Part shown: piece after piece, positions 8,549 through 23,127 of the stretch
Layout: each line of letters opens with the position of its first letter
Numbering within the stretch: the stretch's first letter is position 1
IMG/VR virus record: IMGVR_UViG_3300042554_000812
Coordinates: 1 to 41,671 of that record
DNA length: 41,671 bases
Source: a virus
Reading direction: 5' to 3' (one strand)
Program-made: the position numbers and the translations under genes
The notes under the pieces: generated by a model
Told to the model about the DNA's origin: nothing
Database searches by the model: none
What the model saw: the letters and a program-made list of their open reading frames with translations, nothing else

Positions 8549-9343
8549 ATGCAACTAGAATCAGTTTACAAACTTGGCAGGGACCTTCGCACCGCTGCCC
8601 GCACCATGTCCGATGATGAAGCAAGGTTCCTTGTTGATTACTACTACATTGCCCAAGAAGATCGTAAGCGCAGCACCAATCAAGTCCGTGCATTGGATCA
8701 ATCACAAGAGCCGAATGGCGTGATCAACTGGCTTGCTGATCAAACAGGTAGCCTTGAGAGCGAGATCAAGAAGGCACTAGATTCCTATACCGAGAACCAC
8801 CCCATGGGCGCGTGGATGCGTCAGATCTACGGCATTGGCCCTGTTATTTCTGCCGGTCTGTTAGCGCACATCGACATTACCAAAGCGCCTACGGTTGGTC
8901 ACATCTGGCGTTATGCTGGCTTAGATCCCACAAGCAAATGGGAGAAAGGACAGAAGCGCCCATGGAATGCAGGACTGAAATCACTGTGCTGGAAGGCTGG
9001 CCAGTCATTCATGAAGTTCAGCAACAGGGAAGAGTGCTACTACGGCCACGTGTACAAAGAACGTAAGGCCTATGAAATTGCACGCAATGATCGTGGCGAT
9101 AACAAAGATCTAGCCGAGCAGTTGAAAGAGAAGGTTGGCAAGACTACGGATGCTTACAAACATCTGTCCAGTGGCGTGCTGCCACCCGGTCAGATCGATG
9201 CACGGTCACGGCGTTATGCTGTTAAATTATTCCTTTCACACCTGCATGGCGCATGGTATGAAACGCATTTTGGAACGAAGCCACCATTACCCTATCCGAT
9301 AGCACACCTGGGTCATGCACACTTCACTCCTTCACCTGTTTAA
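8549..9343 (+). CDS. IS110 transposase C-terminal-domain-like protein
   Basis: The 264-residue protein has in its middle WMRQIYGIGPVISAGLLAHID followed by IWRYAGLDPTSKWEKG and WKAGQSFMK. This order (a helix-hairpin-helix around GIGP, then YAGLDP, then a basic Leu-rich helix) is that of the C-terminal Transposase_20 domain of IS110/IS116 elements. The N-terminal RuvC-like DEDD domain is not visible, so it should not transpose by itself. It is likely a domesticated DNA-binding part. ACAGGAGA precedes the ATG. It lies directly beside the motif array at 9356, which starts 13 bases after its stop. A role in binding or shaping that array is possible. Confidence 0.72.
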   Translation: MQLESVYKLGRDLRTAARTMSDDEARFLVDYYYIAQEDRKRSTNQVRALDQSQEPNGVINWLADQTGSLESEIKKALDSYTENHPMGAWMRQIYGIGPVISAGLLAHIDITKAPTVGHIWRYAGLDPTSKWEKGQKRPWNAGLKSLCWKAGQSFMKFSNREECYYGHVYKERKAYEIARNDRGDNKDLAEQLKEKVGKTTDAYKHLSSGVLPPGQIDARSRRYAVKLFLSHLHGAWYETHFGTKPPLPYPIAHLGHAHFTPSPV

Positions 9344-13911: not shown

Positions 13912-14594
13912 GCAAAGGCCTTTGCGCGGGGGCCGTGGAAAATAATTGCCACTGAAGCGGCTTGCGGTTTGAGGGCTCCATCGCAAGCTACACAATCGAT
14001 ACACTGCCGGCCGGTGGTATCTGATGGGCAAGCGATTTCGTTGCGTGCCAGCGGTTCGCCTTGTCGGCGTATGCGGTAGGTTCTCCAGCCCATGGCACGC
14101 GCTAGGTCTTGATCCTCTAAGCTCTCCACTGATGCCATGCAAAGCTCGCGCATTGGTTGCGCCCATGTTTGGCGCCATTGGTGCGTGTACCCGGTCCAGC
14201 CCTCTGCGCCTTCCAACACTCGCGCCCAGTGCTGAAGCGGGATCATTGCAGGATCGCCGGCTGCGCCCATTCTGACAACTCGGCCGGATACTATGCGGCG
14301 CATTAACGCAGGCTTTCGGCGCAAGTCGATATATCCTCCACGGTGGTAGGTGTTCCATATATTCAGCGGCGCATGCCCCCAGTTCACATAGCAGGGGCCG
14401 CGCACTGGACAATCCCCACAATGCGAGCGGTCGGCACCGGTGCGGCGTGCCATGGTGGGCGATATATCTTCGCGCAAAATCCATGTTTGGATAAGGTTCC
14501 CGGTCTTGCGGTTGTCTGACGCAAGCGTGGCGATTCCTACCAATGGGGCGTTATCGATGGGGCTCTTGCCTCGGTAAAATATAAAGCCGTTCAT
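13908..14594 (-). CDS. Cys-rich plasmid/phage-type protein, unknown, possibly redox or radical-SAM-like
   Basis: Start chosen at 14594 (MNGFIFYRG) for the ATGA overlap. The 228-residue protein has RSHCGDCPVRGPCYVNWG (three Cys), RMGAAGDPAMIP, GWTGYTHQWR, MGWRTYRIRR, and near the end CPSDTTGRQCIDCVACDG (four Cys). I recall this motif set from hypothetical proteins of plasmids and phages. The C--C----C cluster and 'GDPA-IP' hint at an iron-sulfur enzyme, but the classical C-x3-C-x2-C is absent, so I make no claim. It is the largest gene of this GC-rich operon. Confidence 0.82.
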   Translation of the reverse strand: MNGFIFYRGKSPIDNAPLVGIATLASDNRKTGNLIQTWILREDISPTMARRTGADRSHCGDCPVRGPCYVNWGHAPLNIWNTYHRGGYIDLRRKPALMRRIVSGRVVRMGAAGDPAMIPLQHWARVLEGAEGWTGYTHQWRQTWAQPMRELCMASVESLEDQDLARAMGWRTYRIRRQGEPLARNEIACPSDTTGRQCIDCVACDGALKPQAASVAIIFHGPRAKAFA

Positions 14595-14854
14595 TGTTTG
14601 CCCCCCACTAATGCGCGGACCAATTCCACCAAGCGGGGCAGTTCGCACTCGTAGGCTTGGAATACAATTCCACCACCATATGCGCGGTTATGGTACTTGC
14701 GCCCCCCTAGTTTGTTTGCGGCTTTGATTACGCGCTGATAGCGTTCGGATATGGTCAGTGCGCCATGGTCGGCGCCTTCGGGCTCCAATGTCAAAAAATG
14801 GATTACGTGGCGCGGGTTGCCGTTGATGTCTGATTTGATTCTCTGAAAGTCCAT
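14591..14854 (-). CDS. Small basic protein, unknown
   Basis: The 87-residue product (HVIHFLTLEP, ISERYQRVIKAANKLGGRKY, GGIVFQAYECELPRLVELV) alternates strands and helices and could be a compact alpha/beta fold. It overlaps the Cys-rich gene by ATGA, so the two are co-translated and may act together. Unrecognised. Confidence 0.78.
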   Translation of the reverse strand: MDFQRIKSDINGNPRHVIHFLTLEPEGADHGALTISERYQRVIKAANKLGGRKYHNRAYGGGIVFQAYECELPRLVELVRALVGGKQ

Positions 14855-16030: not shown

Positions 16031-16210
16031 TTATAGGTCGAGTGGCATTTGGCCGCGGTTGCGGGGCTGGCGCACTTCGTAATATTCGAGTAGTTCTTGA
16101 TCGATGATGGCCGGATGGTCGAATGAGTAATCAAGCCCTTCAATCACGGCGTCCGGGTCGGCGTCATCCTCGATATAAATCGATACGCTGACAATTAAAA
16201 GGCGGCTCAT
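16031..16210 (-). CDS. Small acidic protein, unknown
   Basis: The ATG at 16210 makes an ATGA overlap with the previous gene. The 59-residue product has a strand (RLLIVSVSIYI), an acidic turn (EDDADPDAVIEGLDYSFDHP) and a helix. No known family. Confidence 0.72.
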   Translation of the reverse strand: MSRLLIVSVSIYIEDDADPDAVIEGLDYSFDHPAIIDQELLEYYEVRQPRNRGQMPLDL

Positions 16211-16407
16211 GCTTGCCCCCTCTCTGCCATGAGTCGGCCAAAGCGGCCTGTAATGACTACGCGCCCCCAGTCTTGGGGATAGCATCGCGCCCAGGCAAGC
16301 GCATCGGCGAAGGTATGCGCCTTGTGGCAGATAGTCCGATCATCGGATAGCACTCTGACGGTAAAGGGTGCTAAGCGCAGGGCTAAGCGGTTTAATAGTC
16401 GTTTCAT
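16207..16407 (-). CDS. First gene of the second left operon, small basic protein
   Basis: The 66-residue product has an amphipathic basic helix (MKRLLNRLALRLAPF) and an alpha/beta rest with HTFADALAWARCYPQ and WGRVVITGRFGR. Its leader has no classic GGAG; instead AAGAGAACCACACT precedes the ATG, which contains an exact copy of array motif A (16420-16412). Transcription should come from the promoter at 16479-16451. Confidence 0.72.
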   Translation of the reverse strand: MKRLLNRLALRLAPFTVRVLSDDRTICHKAHTFADALAWARCYPQDWGRVVITGRFGRLMAERGQA

Positions 16408-16428
16408 AGTGTGGTTCTCTTATAAAGT

Positions 16429-16444
16429 CGTGCAACGTTGCACG
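16429..16444. promoter_or_regulatory. 16-base perfect palindrome between divergent promoters
   Basis: CGTGCAACGTTGCACG is perfectly symmetric. It covers the -35 box of the rightward promoter and the expected start site of the leftward promoter, so one bound dimer could shut both. It is a strong operator candidate for the switch between the left operon and the terminase-headed right operon. Confidence 0.75.
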
Positions 16445-16466
16445 CAATACATCATAGGCTTGTTAT
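16438..16466 (+). promoter_or_regulatory. Rightward promoter toward the terminase operon
   Basis: TTGCAC at 16438-16443, 17 bases, TGTTAT at 16461-16466. Spacing is ideal and the -35 is the same as in the promoter at 26224. The expected start leaves a leader of about 115 bases before the small terminase gene. The -10 match is only moderate. Confidence 0.55.
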
Positions 16467-16479
16467 GTATGGCATGCAA
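16451..16479 (-). promoter_or_regulatory. Leftward promoter for the second left operon
   Basis: On the minus strand TTGCAT (16479-16474), 17 bases, TATGAT (16456-16451). The start site should fall at about 16444-16440, inside the palindrome. Together with the rightward promoter the two overlap almost completely, so they compete for polymerase. Confidence 0.65.
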
Positions 16480-16586
16480 TACCCTAAGGGGTCATAACTG
16501 ACCAATGGCAGGCATAAGCTGACGTACGGTTGACTACAGCAGATAAACGGTCATAATGCGTTCTTATTTCGTTCACATAGGCAAGC

Positions 16587-17459
16587 ATGGCAGCAGAGTT
16601 ACCAGCGGCAGCACTGAAGGCAATCGAGCGGGGCGTTCCGGCGGATCGGGTACTGATGCCGGATGTGGACCTTACACCTAAGCAAAGGCAGTTCGTCCGA
16701 GGGTTAGCCGATGGCATGAGCAAGCGGGATGCATACGTGAGCGCATATGACGCAAAGGCGGATAGCCGATCGGTTGGGATAACGGCGTGCACCATGGCGG
16801 CCAGTCCAAAAATACAGTTAGCCCTTCAGCAGCAAAGGGCGGTCGAGCGGTTGCGGTATTCGCAAAACCCCCTTCAGATACGCTCTTTTGTGGTCGATTC
16901 CCTACAGCATGAGGCCCGAACCGCCCAAAAACCAGCCGACAGACTGCGTGCGTTGGAGCTACTTGGCAAGCTGGCGGACGTTGGAGCTTTCGAGACTCGG
17001 TCCGTTGTCGAACACCGATCGGCCAATGATACCAAAGCCAAGCTCGCAGCCAAGTTACAGCGGCTCGTGATCGACGTGGAGGCTCACGATCCGGGGGCGG
17101 AGGCGGACCCCACCCAGGGGGAGGGGGCACAAAGTGGCGGGGTGTCTGGGGGCGGCGCTAGGTCTAATAATCCACACGAACAATTTCCCAACTCTACCGA
17201 TGACCAAGAGGGTACCCCCTACGAAAGTTCTAATATCACGCCACGTGGCGTAATTACAGGGGAAGAGGCCCCCTATGAAGAGGAAGTGGGTTCCCATGAG
17301 GGGGTAGGTAAAAAAAAGAAGGAGAGGCCTATATGGGAAGATCCGAAGAGATGGTATGCGGAGACGATGGGGGAGGTGCCGAAGATTGAGTGGGCGCCGA
17401 GGGAGGATGCTAGGGAGGAGGTACAGAAGAGGTTGAAAGATGACGAAGGCGGAGGCTAA
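16587..17459 (+). CDS. terS: Terminase small subunit-like protein
   Basis: Residues 28-75 carry the small terminase DNA-binding pattern: LTPKQRQFVRGLADGMSKRDAY, then SAYDAKADSRSVGITACTMAASPKIQLAL. The helix that follows resembles the oligomerisation part. This subunit recognises the packaging site and loads the large terminase encoded two genes later. The second half, from about residue 170, is low-complexity (Gly, Glu, Pro rich) and holds the palindrome-coded NITPRGVIT at about 217-225, near a basic KKKKERP. At 290 residues it is longer than many family members because of that tail. Base composition is very GC-rich (45 of 60 at 17101-17160). Confidence 0.85.
   Translation: MAAELPAAALKAIERGVPADRVLMPDVDLTPKQRQFVRGLADGMSKRDAYVSAYDAKADSRSVGITACTMAASPKIQLALQQQRAVERLRYSQNPLQIRSFVVDSLQHEARTAQKPADRLRALELLGKLADVGAFETRSVVEHRSANDTKAKLAAKLQRLVIDVEAHDPGAEADPTQGEGAQSGGVSGGGARSNNPHEQFPNSTDDQEGTPYESSNITPRGVITGEEAPYEEEVGSHEGVGKKKKERPIWEDPKRWYAETMGEVPKIEWAPREDAREEVQKRLKDDEGGG
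17235..17254. repeat. Palindromic element copy 3, in the small terminase gene
   Basis: Matches the core with one change (ATC for ATT in the left arm); the right arm is perfect. It is read as NITPRGVIT in the low-complexity tail. The frame is the same as in the other two genes. Confidence 0.92.
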
Positions 17460-17658
17460 GGTATTTTTGGCGGTGAAGACTTGGTGGGAGCTATATCATT
17501 TTTCGCCGACGTATGACGATATACGGTTTGTGTTATTGCAGGAGAGTAAGAGTAACGTGCATAGGCTTGTAAGGAGTTTATGTAAACAGGGGTATTTGAA
17601 GCGGATACCTGGGAAGTCCAGGAGTATTAGGGTGATTAAGAAGAAAGATGGATCTTAG
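17440..17658 (+). CDS. Stand-alone LexA-type winged-helix protein
   Basis: The 72-residue product matches the DNA-binding domain of LexA alone: FSPTYDDIRFVL (LexA has SPT--EIA--LG), then SKSNVHRLVRSLCKQGYLKRIPGKSRSIRV (LexA has S---VHR-L--L--KGYL-R-P---R-I-V). No cleavage or dimerisation domain follows, so RecA-triggered cleavage is not expected. It overlaps the terminase genes by 20 and 11 bases on its two sides. It may regulate late genes or mask host SOS boxes; both are inference. Confidence 0.82.
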   Translation: MTKAEAKVFLAVKTWWELYHFSPTYDDIRFVLLQESKSNVHRLVRSLCKQGYLKRIPGKSRSIRVIKKKDGS

Positions 17659-20164
17659 GGCGTTAGCTAAAGCGGCGGCAGGAAAGCTTCATTTATTGAC
17701 GAGTGAAGAGCAGGAGCTATTGCTTAGGGAATTAGAAGAATTAGAGAAGGAGGAAGAGAAGAATAAGGCGCAGCATGAGTTCATGGGGTTTGTGAAACAG
17801 ATGTGGCCGGGGTTTATACCGGGCCGGCACCATGAAATTGTGGCTAGGGCGTTTGAGGATGTGGTGAATGGGAAGAATAAGCGGTTGATTATTAACATGG
17901 CACCGAGGCACACGAAGTCTGAGTTTGCTTCTTATTTGTTGCCGGCTTGGTTCTTGGGGAAGTATCCAGGCAAGAAGGTGATTCAGACATCGCATACAGC
18001 GGAATTGGCCGTTGGGTTTGGTAGGAAGGTAAGGAACCTTATTGATTCAGATACCTATCACAAGGTATTTGATGATGTGAAGCTAAAAGTTGATAACAAG
18101 AGTGCTGGTCGGTGGGCCACGAATAAGGGCGGTGAGTATTTTTCAATTGGTGTGGGTGGATCGGTGACAGGTAAGGGTGCGGATCTATTGATTATTGATG
18201 ATCCACATTCTGAACAAGAAGCTAAGTTGGCTGCTCATAAGCCTGATGTGTTTGATTCAGTGTATGACTGGTATACGTCAGGTCCACGGCAGCGTCTACA
18301 GCCGGGTGGGGCCATTATCATAGTTATGACAAGATGGTCGCTCAGAGACCTGACCGGGCAAGTGATTAAAGCAAGTCAGACCAGGGGTGGTGATGAGTGG
18401 GAGGTGATAGAACTTCCAGCGATATTGCCATCTGGTAGGCCGATGTGGCCGGAGTTTTGGAAGTTAGAAGAATTACTGGCGTTGAAAGATGAATTGCCGG
18501 TAGGTAAATGGAATGCTCAGTATCAGCAACAGCCGACTGCTGAAGAAGGTGCGATTGTAAAGCGGGAGTGGTGGAAGATTTGGAAGCATGACAGGCCGCC
18601 GGCATGTGATTTTGTGATTCAGAGCTGGGATACGGCGTTTTTAAAGCACAACCGGGCGGATTTTTCTGCTTGTACGACCTGGGGGGTGTGGACAAATGAG
18701 GATGGAGAGACCAATATCATCCTTTTAGACGCCTTTAAGGACCGCTATGAGTTTCCAGAACTTAAGCAAAAGGCTTATGAGACCTACACCGAATGGCAAC
18801 CGGACGTATTTTTGGTTGAAGCAAAGGCAGCAGGAAGCCCGTTGGTCTTTGAACTCCGCCGGATGGGTATACCAGTCAGTGAATACAGCCCCACCAAAGG
18901 TAACGACAAGATCGTAAGGATGAATGCGGTTGCAGATTTGTTTGCATCAGGACGAATCTGGGCGCCGGAACGTAAGTTTGCTGATGAAGTGATCGAGGAA
19001 GTAGCGGCTTTTCCTGCCGGTGAACATGATGACCTTTGCCTTGTGGCGGACACCATGATTCTTATGGCGGACGGCATGGAAAAGCGCATCGATCAAGTTA
19101 AAGACGGTGATTTGGTTGCCACACCGGATGGACCAAGGAAGGTTTTAGCTGCTGGATGTACGGGGTATAAAGAAACCATGACGCTTAAAGCCGGTCAATA
19201 TGCTATCCAAGGAACGGGCAATCACCCGGTTGCAACCAAAAGGGGCTGGGTATGCATACAGGATATTGATCCAAATGATGCTATACTTGTCGAATCAAGA
19301 CAGGAGCAGTCATCATGGTATTTGCAAGTCAAGGCATTACGTCAGAGGTTGTTGTATTTAATGGCCGCAGGTACAGGCGCTATCCAAACGCTAAGCAAGC
19401 CACACACCGCAAGTATTTTTCAAGGTCTGGGGCACTATTACACAGGGATATTTGGGAGTTTCACAACGGGACCATACCGGCAGGACATCAAATACACCAC
19501 AAGAATGGCGATCCATCAGACAATCGATTGGAAAACTTGGAGTGCGTCAGCGTATCTGATCACAAAGAAAGGCACAAAGAAGAAATTATCCAGCGAGGGC
19601 AAAGCGAACAATCTATTAAGCACCTTGAAGCTATTCGACGCTTGGCGGCTGTTTGGCACGCAAGCCCAGAGGGTATTGAATGGCACAAAAAACATGCTGC
19701 AAACTCTATTGCAAAACGTGATCCCAAATGGAGAGACAAAAAGCCTTGGCTCACGGTTGCTTGTAAGGTATGCAAAAAGATTTTTGAAACAAAAAACACT
19801 CGCAAGTCTATTTGCTCAACAGCCTGTACATCAAAAAAACGAAACGATAAGCAGCGAGAAGAGCAGCTTTCAAAGCCATACACATGCTTGCAGTGCAACA
19901 AAATTTATTTCACCGTCCAAAAAAGAAAAAAGTTTTGTGGCCGTGTGTGCGGACAAGCCTTCAATCGAGCAAGCAGGAAGGCAAGCCGTTTATAACTTGG
20001 CCGTTGAAGGTTCGCATTGTTATTTTGCCAACAAAGTTCTTGTTCATAACTGCGATTCCATGACACAGGCCCTACTTAGGTTTAGGCAAGGCGGGTTCTT
20101 GAGCCTACAATCCGACGACGAAGACCGTGAGTCTATTTACCGCCGCAAGGTTGCATATTATTAG
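17648..20164 (+). CDS. terL: Terminase large subunit interrupted by an intein
   Basis: The 838-residue frame codes a 500-residue terminase split by a 338-residue intein. The ATPase part has a deviant Walker A, APRHTKS (85-91), and Walker B, LLIIDD (to 185). The RNase H-like nuclease has QSWDTAF with Asp 328, VEAKAAG, and HDDL joined after splicing to CDSMTQALLRF. The intein lies at Cys 464, in the last nuclease motif, so the unspliced protein should be unable to cut DNA. The enzyme drives DNA into the prohead. An HNH gene overlaps the intein part in another frame. The ATG at 17648 overlaps the LexA-like gene. Confidence 0.95.
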   Translation: MDLRALAKAAAGKLHLLTSEEQELLLRELEELEKEEEKNKAQHEFMGFVKQMWPGFIPGRHHEIVARAFEDVVNGKNKRLIINMAPRHTKSEFASYLLPAWFLGKYPGKKVIQTSHTAELAVGFGRKVRNLIDSDTYHKVFDDVKLKVDNKSAGRWATNKGGEYFSIGVGGSVTGKGADLLIIDDPHSEQEAKLAAHKPDVFDSVYDWYTSGPRQRLQPGGAIIIVMTRWSLRDLTGQVIKASQTRGGDEWEVIELPAILPSGRPMWPEFWKLEELLALKDELPVGKWNAQYQQQPTAEEGAIVKREWWKIWKHDRPPACDFVIQSWDTAFLKHNRADFSACTTWGVWTNEDGETNIILLDAFKDRYEFPELKQKAYETYTEWQPDVFLVEAKAAGSPLVFELRRMGIPVSEYSPTKGNDKIVRMNAVADLFASGRIWAPERKFADEVIEEVAAFPAGEHDDLCLVADTMILMADGMEKRIDQVKDGDLVATPDGPRKVLAAGCTGYKETMTLKAGQYAIQGTGNHPVATKRGWVCIQDIDPNDAILVESRQEQSSWYLQVKALRQRLLYLMAAGTGAIQTLSKPHTASIFQGLGHYYTGIFGSFTTGPYRQDIKYTTRMAIHQTIDWKTWSASAYLITKKGTKKKLSSEGKANNLLSTLKLFDAWRLFGTQAQRVLNGTKNMLQTLLQNVIPNGETKSLGSRLLVRYAKRFLKQKTLASLFAQQPVHQKNETISSEKSSFQSHTHACSATKFISPSKKEKSFVAVCADKPSIEQAGRQAVYNLAVEGSHCYFANKVLVHNCDSMTQALLRFRQGGFLSLQSDDEDRESIYRRKVAYY
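19037..20050 (+). other. Intein coding region within terL
   Basis: The intein runs from Cys 1 (CLVADTMILMADG) to Asn before Cys +1 (VLVHN-C). Block B is seen in GTGNHPVATKRGW with the conserved His, and blocks F and G in VYNLAVEGSHCYFANKVLVHN. The middle, about 220 residues, has no in-frame endonuclease motifs; instead the DNA codes an HNH protein in the +2-shifted frame (19315-19995). The splicing frame has no stop across that whole overlap. Splicing activity is inferred from the intact end residues. Confidence 0.92.
19315..19995 (+). CDS. HNH homing endonuclease nested out of frame in the intein
   Basis: The 226-residue product has an HNH_3-type core: NGRRYRRYP, HRDIWEFHNGTIPAGHQIHHKNG, then SDNRLENLECVS (quoted in parts), giving the His-Asn-His set. 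After a Lys-rich helical linker come two treble-clef-like fingers, CKVCKKIFE with CSTAC, and CLQCNKIYF with CGRVC. AGGAG stands at 19302-19306, 8 bases before the ATG, so it has its own ribosome site within the intein. It should cut intein-less terL and so spread the element. The coding quality of this frame is clearly higher than the intein frame over the same bases. Confidence 0.88.
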   Translation: MVFASQGITSEVVVFNGRRYRRYPNAKQATHRKYFSRSGALLHRDIWEFHNGTIPAGHQIHHKNGDPSDNRLENLECVSVSDHKERHKEEIIQRGQSEQSIKHLEAIRRLAAVWHASPEGIEWHKKHAANSIAKRDPKWRDKKPWLTVACKVCKKIFETKNTRKSICSTACTSKKRNDKQREEQLSKPYTCLQCNKIYFTVQKRKKFCGRVCGQAFNRASRKASRL

Positions 20165-22575: not shown

Positions 22576-22763
22576 TGGATTTTTCAGAAGCCGTTTCACT
22601 GGAAATAAACAAGCAGATCCGCTATGCGGAGGAACAGCTTGCACAAGGAAGTATGAAGTCCTTTGAGGACTACAAGTTCGTCTGCGGTCAGATTCAAGGT
22701 CTCCTGATCGCAAGACGCATAAACGAAGACCTTGCCAATCGTATGAAGGACCATGATGACTGA
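22575..22763 (+). CDS. Small helical protein between portal and GroES-like gene
   Basis: The ATG at 22575 shares TGATG with the portal stop and has AAGGAG six bases upstream. The 62-residue product (AVSLEINKQIRYAEEQLAQG, DYKFVCGQIQGLLIARRI) is a helical hairpin in appearance. Proteins of this size and pattern often follow portal genes in podovirus-like genomes. Function unknown. Confidence 0.78.
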   Translation: MDFSEAVSLEINKQIRYAEEQLAQGSMKSFEDYKFVCGQIQGLLIARRINEDLANRMKDHDD

Positions 22764-23127
22764 TTTATCTGAGGTATCTCAGCAGGAAGAAACAGCAACA
22801 CAATTACCAAATCCTACGGGTTACAGGATGTTGTGTGCGCTGCCAGAAGTAGAGGACAAGTTTTCCAACGGCATTTTGAAGCCGGATGCATTGGCAAAGC
22901 TTGAGGAGTTCAGCACGGTTGTTTTGTTTGTTATCAAACAAGGACCCGATTGCTACAAAGATCAGTCAAAGTTTCCAACAGGCCCATGGTGTAAAGAGGG
23001 CGACTTTGTTTTGGTACGGGCGTATTCCGGTACGCGATTCAAAATCCACGGACGAGAGTTCCGCCTTATCAACGATGACACGGTAGAAGGTGTTGTTGAA
23101 GATCCACGCGGTTATAGCCGCGCATAA
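22756..23127 (+). CDS. GroES-like co-chaperonin or related beta-barrel protein
   Basis: The 123-residue protein resembles phage proteins annotated as GroES-like: TGYRMLCALPEVEDKFSNGI at the start, VVLFVIKQGPDCYKD, PWCKEGDFVLVRAYSGTRFKI and FRLINDDTVEGVVEDP. GroES relatives show the same order (a strand with 'iLvkP', a mobile loop, 'Gd-Vl---y-G' and a final 'r--dilav'). It could help the host chaperonin fold the capsid protein. ATGs stand at 22753 and 22756; AAGGA fits the second better. The assignment is from pattern memory and place among head genes. Confidence 0.7.
   Translation: MTDLSEVSQQEETATQLPNPTGYRMLCALPEVEDKFSNGILKPDALAKLEEFSTVVLFVIKQGPDCYKDQSKFPTGPWCKEGDFVLVRAYSGTRFKIHGREFRLINDDTVEGVVEDPRGYSRA

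Follow-up and report, generated by a model that had tools for sequence, protein, structure and literature searches.

The question raised by this locus is how two operons that diverge from a short intergenic stretch, at positions 16408-16586, are controlled, and through which DNA elements and which protein. The window is the whole stretch of DNA that was analysed, 41,671 nucleotides of the IMG/VR virus record IMGVR_UViG_3300042554_000812. A sequence-only reading had placed two back-to-back, almost fully overlapping promoters here, over a 16-bp palindrome, an arrangement that could act as a two-way switch between a left accessory operon and the packaging operon. The genes on either side are:

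16207-16407, minus strand: first leftward gene, 66 aa, of unknown function, a swap site among relatives
16587-17459, plus strand: terminase small subunit (terS), first gene of the packaging operon (phrog_51, E 7e-11)
17440-17658, plus strand: 72-aa protein consisting of a LexA DNA-binding domain only, overlapping terS and terL (TIGR00498, AlphaFold2, PDB matches)
17648-20164, plus strand: terminase large subunit (terL) with an intein (phrog_38, E 5.4e-98; PF14890, TIGR01443)

The packaging operon runs in the order terS, 72-aa gene and terL, with overlapping genes, and is followed by the gene for the portal protein. The intein in TerL spans approximately residues 464-802, directly after HDDL in the nuclease part; its match to Pfam Intein_splicing (35.1 bits) is just under the cut-off, and the Hint-domain model PF14623 and TIGR01443 are matched above the cut-off. 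Elsewhere in the window, a GroES-like co-chaperonin is encoded in the structural module (22753-23127, plus strand; phrog_3188, with Pfam Cpn10 at the cut-off) and an IS110-type transposase-like gene was identified at 8549-9343 on the plus strand (phrog_4285, PF02371).

Close DNA relatives were not found among phage records. Related loci were collected with a scan of viral contigs for the small terminase subunit, which yielded 51 loci, and a scan for the 72-aa family, which yielded 61. The set of 42 loci used below consists of the window, 36 of the 51 terS-scan loci and 5 loci from the second scan, all with sufficient sequence upstream of terS. The remaining 15 of the 51 (L033, L036, L037, L039, L040, L042 and L044-L052), whose contigs begin within terS or too close to it, were left out of the box counts. 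Eleven further loci were examined, of which L126, L131, L134 and L135 have no upstream sequence, two lie on the same contigs as L035 and L038, and five were added. The alignment of the upstream region included 32 sequences, the grouping of first leftward genes 36 loci, and the inverted-repeat test 17 of the 42.

Two elements of the intergenic stretch stand out in these comparisons:

16530-16557, plus strand: rightward promoter of the packaging operon, TTGACT-16-CATAAT (promoter scan, 10 of 12 consensus matches; alignment)
16560-16574, plus strand: GTTC-N7-GTTC direct repeat GTTCTTATTTCGTTC, an alphaproteobacterial-type LexA operator (conservation)

The promoter at 16530-16557 was the sole match in the intergenic stretch in a scan that required at least 4 of 6 consensus bases per hexamer and at least 9 of 12 overall. 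It is located about 90 bp to the right of the rightward promoter proposed earlier, and its expected start lies at about 16563-16565. The GTTC box begins two bases past the -10 hexamer and covers the expected start together with the initial bases of the transcript. In the alignment, no part of the intergenic region is better conserved than TTGAC.-16-CATAAT (or TTGTAA-16-TATCAT) with the next 18 bases. The general pattern, TTGNNN-16-NATNAT with the box behind it, was matched in 33 of the 42 loci and not in the other 9. As judged from these patterns, TTGACT-16-CATAAT is a better predicted rightward promoter than the pair claimed earlier.

The strict box occurs only once in the window. Within 160 bp upstream of terS, it was found in 36 of the 42 loci, and the relaxed form GTTY-N7-GTTY in 41, in 11 sequence versions, although many of these loci are close relatives and the counts do not represent independent events. 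With control spacings of 3-6 and 8-13 in the same 42 loci, there were no strict matches and at most 3 relaxed ones. All 32 plus-strand strict copies in L002-L052 (51 loci, 376 kb) are found in the 80 bp ahead of terS; on the minus strand, the same sequences have a single copy. When 10 larger records were searched in full, a strict match was present in 9, and the few copies away from terS were no commoner than matches to a reversed control pattern. In one locus (L019), 4 bases are inserted between the -10 hexamer and the box, with the box spacing kept and a different spacer sequence. The 25 loci of TerL relatives in which no 72-aa gene was detected (197 kb) contain 2 strict copies in all. One locus (L043) encodes a protein of the 72-aa type and lacks a box throughout its 163 bp of upstream DNA.

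Caulobacter and other alphaproteobacteria have GTTC-N7-GTTC as their LexA operator, according to PMC12700426, PMC3091678, PMC9578287 and PMC8565304. As a positive control, we used 80 of 576 confirmed alphaproteobacterial lexA loci, of which 78 have the box, on either strand, within 200 bp upstream of the gene; other spacings were seen in at most 3 of the 80. The window likewise has GTTC-N7-GTTC at a predicted promoter, in an arrangement that defines an alphaproteobacterial-type LexA operator on either strand, and the operator type hints at an alphaproteobacterial host.

The protein encoded at 17440-17658 resembles the DNA-binding part of LexA in sequence and in predicted fold. TIGR00498 (LexA) matches residues 1-68 with an E-value of 9.5e-7, far from the full-length cut-off, and Pfam LexA_DNA_bind, with 21.9 bits, narrowly misses its cut-off of 23.7; the first match in PHROGs is to a family of unknown function. 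The AlphaFold2 model has a mean pLDDT of 89.1, and LexA chains make up all of the top 8 Foldseek matches in the PDB (E up to 0.001), among them 1lea, a LexA domain of 72 residues on its own, and 3jsp and 3jso, complexes of LexA with DNA, with TMq of about 0.87. Thus, of the parts of a full LexA, the N-terminal winged-helix DNA-binding domain is present by TIGR00498 and by fold, with Pfam just under the cut-off. The C-terminal S24 peptidase/dimerisation domain is absent, the frame stopping after 72 aa with terL following directly, so RecA-stimulated cleavage would not be expected.

The recognition helix reads SKSNVHRL, as compared to SKSGIHRL in 80 of the 80 alphaproteobacterial LexA proteins of the control set, a helix count that is partly due to selection, since the control query was a consensus containing SKSGIHRL and one of the peptide patterns was taken from it; the box count is free of this effect. 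The alignment score of the 72-aa protein to the same 80 proteins has a mean of 106, as compared to 22 (sd 4) for shuffled sequences and to 56 and 55 for the LexA domains of E. coli and B. subtilis. In the most distant relatives, the helices are SKSSVWKT, TRSAVWKT and SKAAVWKT, yet the half-sites of the box are still GTTC or GTTT, and helix and box therefore do not show simple covariation.

Relatives of the 72-aa protein were not found in a bacterial collection with one genome per species, where 20 stretches matched a peptide pattern and none was related. Among isolated phages there were only two weak matches, both to Synechococcus phages, at 34.6% identity, and neither of them is GIL01. A LexA-like protein of 103 aa (L220, 1595-1906), whose helix LKSKSDIKRLV is similar, is encoded by Synechococcus phage Ssp-JY39. 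In 4.9 kb of this phage, as in the terL stretches of the three best-ranked annotated phages, the strict box is absent.

The leftward operon runs from 16407 down to 13666, and no function could be recognised among its scanned members except for a small TreK-like protein (14591-14854, minus strand; Staphylococcus phage TreK family, Pfam E 1e-16). The first leftward genes of 36 loci fall into 13 groups without detectable mutual similarity, with start codons chosen by a script, and are mostly preceded by a similar ribosome-binding stretch. Because the first genes are so dissimilar, the intergenic region looks like a fixed divergent control region beside a gene-exchange site. Two elements on this side are at issue:

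16479-16474 (TTGCAT), 17-base spacer, 16456-16451 (TATGAT), minus strand: candidate leftward promoter, exact in 7 of 42 loci
16474-16511, no strand: degenerate counterpart of the inverted repeat GACAATAGGT-N13-ACCTATTGTC, seen by eye on the alignment

No clear leftward promoter common to all loci was found; the best minus-strand match varies by group, and TTGACA-17-GATACT, for example, has an exact minus-strand match in 8 loci. Within the window's own group, TTGCAT-17-TATGAT is a plausible and fair candidate for this role. The inverted repeat GACAATAGGT-N13-ACCTATTGTC has perfect 10-base arms upstream of terS in 3 of 17 loci (L027, L125 and L127), a quality reached in 0 of 60 shuffles for each. 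In the window, the best inverted repeat was reached by 15 of 60 shuffles and is too degenerate to call, and the repeat at 16474-16511 is at most a possible second operator over the leftward -35, and a weak one in the window itself.

Our preferred reading of the locus, which we hold with moderate confidence, is that of a divergent region in which the packaging promoter is repressed by a LexA-type protein on the box over its start. The sequences of the promoter and the box and the conservation of both are computed, as are the LexA domain, the similarity of its helix and the gene order of the operon; binding, repression and feedback we infer. TTGACT-16-CATAAT would drive rightward transcription of terS, the 72-aa gene, terL and onward, and a LexA-type winged-helix protein bound to GTTC-N7-GTTC over the start site would block RNA polymerase. 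The packaging operon is most likely repressed through the box by the 72-aa protein, by host LexA or by both. Two 72-aa monomers may bind side by side on the box; the half-sites are 11 bp apart, about one helical turn, and both face one direction, which would make dimer symmetry unnecessary. Since the 72-aa gene is the second in the operon, its binding at the box would create a negative feedback loop on packaging. Host LexA, if the host is alphaproteobacterial, could occupy this box as well and so couple packaging to DNA damage. With the box and a cut-down LexA of its own, the phage probably borrows the alphaproteobacterial DNA-damage switch for timing its packaging genes. On the other side, the leftward promoter would drive the swappable accessory operon, maybe with an operator of its own. 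It is conceivable, but doubtful, that the 72-aa protein is an uncleavable LexA mimic, which would regulate its own operon and also hold the GTTC-N7-GTTC operators of the host during infection, thereby keeping the SOS response off even when damage inactivates host LexA.

The most serious rival, which we consider somewhat unlikely, is that the box is mainly a host-LexA operator that links packaging to the SOS response, and that the 72-aa protein binds elsewhere or activates in the manner of GIL01 gp6. The box is identical to a host-type LexA site, and the second inverted repeat seen upstream in distant relatives would be an obvious alternative site for an activating protein. Such a division of labour is described for GIL01 in passages of PMC6182141, where a truncated LexA homologue activates the late genes from a separate site and host LexA represses through boxes of its own. 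However, the helix of the 72-aa protein resembles that of the LexA proteins that read this very box, and the class of the host is one that we infer. As for gp6-like activation, the conserved box is located past the -10 and over the expected start, from where a bound protein would not activate, but the 72-aa protein may bind elsewhere, and a second, unassigned repeat is present upstream in some relatives.

The small subunits of terminases are able to recognise DNA within or close to the gene that encodes them, and the GTTC repeat lies immediately before terS. Conservation by itself does not tell which protein binds, and the repeat might be a pac- or cos-like packaging site for TerS instead of an element that controls transcription. 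However, the motif is a known LexA operator whose position behind a conserved promoter hardly varies, and this explanation appears very unlikely to us.

The elements of the switch proposed in the sequence-only reading, in addition to the leftward hexamers, are:

16429-16444, no strand: 16-bp palindrome CGTGCAACGTTGCACG, in 2 of 42 loci, most likely no conserved operator
16438-16443 (TTGCAC), 17-base spacer, 16461-16466 (TGTTAT), plus strand: claimed rightward promoter, found in two of the 42 loci and not supported

The palindrome and all of the named hexamers do exist in the window where they were said to be, the palindrome in one copy in the whole 41.7 kb. By hand count, the claimed rightward promoter matches the sigma-70 consensus at 7 of 12 bases and the leftward one at 8 of 12, and neither reaches the promoter-scan threshold. 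Chance alone should give about 0.6 perfect palindromes of 16 bp, whatever their sequence, in 41.7 kb (41656/4^8), and 21 of 100 shuffles matched the palindrome pattern with up to 3 mismatches; neither the palindrome nor the claimed hexamer pairs were shown to exceed chance. Both the palindrome and the claimed rightward promoter are confined to the same two loci, the window and its near relative L004. Across the viral collection the palindrome was present in four records, one of which is the contig of L004; in L086 it forms part of a longer hairpin in an otherwise different locus. The palindrome was rejected as an operator on the count of 2 in 42 loci, and so was the claimed rightward promoter, in place of which a far better rightward promoter is conserved.

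Two supported, overlapping divergent promoters with a shared operator were thus not found in the window, and the near-complete overlap does not hold either: the expected starts would be about 120 bp apart if 16530-16557 is the true rightward promoter. Although every named element is present in the window, the model of back-to-back promoters switched by the palindrome is extremely improbable, given the restriction of the palindrome and the claimed rightward promoter to 2 of 42 loci and the much better rightward promoter that is conserved. Of the two-way switch, a lineage-conserved divergent regulatory region between the left accessory operon and the packaging operon stood, and the palindrome, limited to the window and L004, did not. 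The naming of the LexA-like protein at 17440 as a regulator was a good suggestion; it is probably a binder at a site other than the palindrome, and the best-fitting site is GTTC-N7-GTTC at 16560-16574. The other suggested binder, the helix-turn-helix protein at 2311, was covered by the domain scans, and no result connects it with the intergenic stretch. The original observation was real as text, and mostly not meaningful as it was read.

With regard to known systems, the closest precedent is, by analogy, gp6 of GIL01 with the host LexA boxes at promoter P3. As passages of PMC6182141 describe it, gp6 is likewise a phage protein with little beyond a LexA DNA-binding domain, and it is tied to a late (structural) promoter with LexA-type boxes. 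The differences are that GIL01 is a Bacillus tectivirus with the LexA boxes of a Gram-positive host, and that gp6 activates from a palindrome that overlaps the -35 and is centred at -43.5, according to the same passages. Here, in contrast, the virus is a tailed phage, with terminase and portal genes, the site is an alphaproteobacterial direct repeat over the expected start, and the gene lies inside the operon that it would control. The alphaproteobacterial LexA proteins share with this system the operator sequence, the helix SKSxxHRL and the winged-helix fold, but have a C-terminal S24 peptidase/dimerisation domain that the 72-aa protein is without.

Host LexA also controls antirepressor, co-repressor or lytic genes in phages described in PMC9437464, and these resemble the present locus in having a LexA-type site in a phage promoter. 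Here, however, the first gene encodes the small terminase subunit, and no integrase was found among the proteins scanned. A pairing of a LexA-type box with a LexA-domain protein in a tailed phage did not appear in the titles and abstract openings of the literature searched.

What deserves to be kept from this locus is the adjacent LexA-type operator with its partner protein. They connect a cis-element conserved across a lineage of uncultured tailed phages with one particular small regulator, and they provide a sharp, testable prediction of a DNA sequence and of a helix in the protein. Taken together with GIL01, they suggest that a stripped-down LexA has been recruited for the control of late or packaging genes in both tectiviruses and tailed phages.
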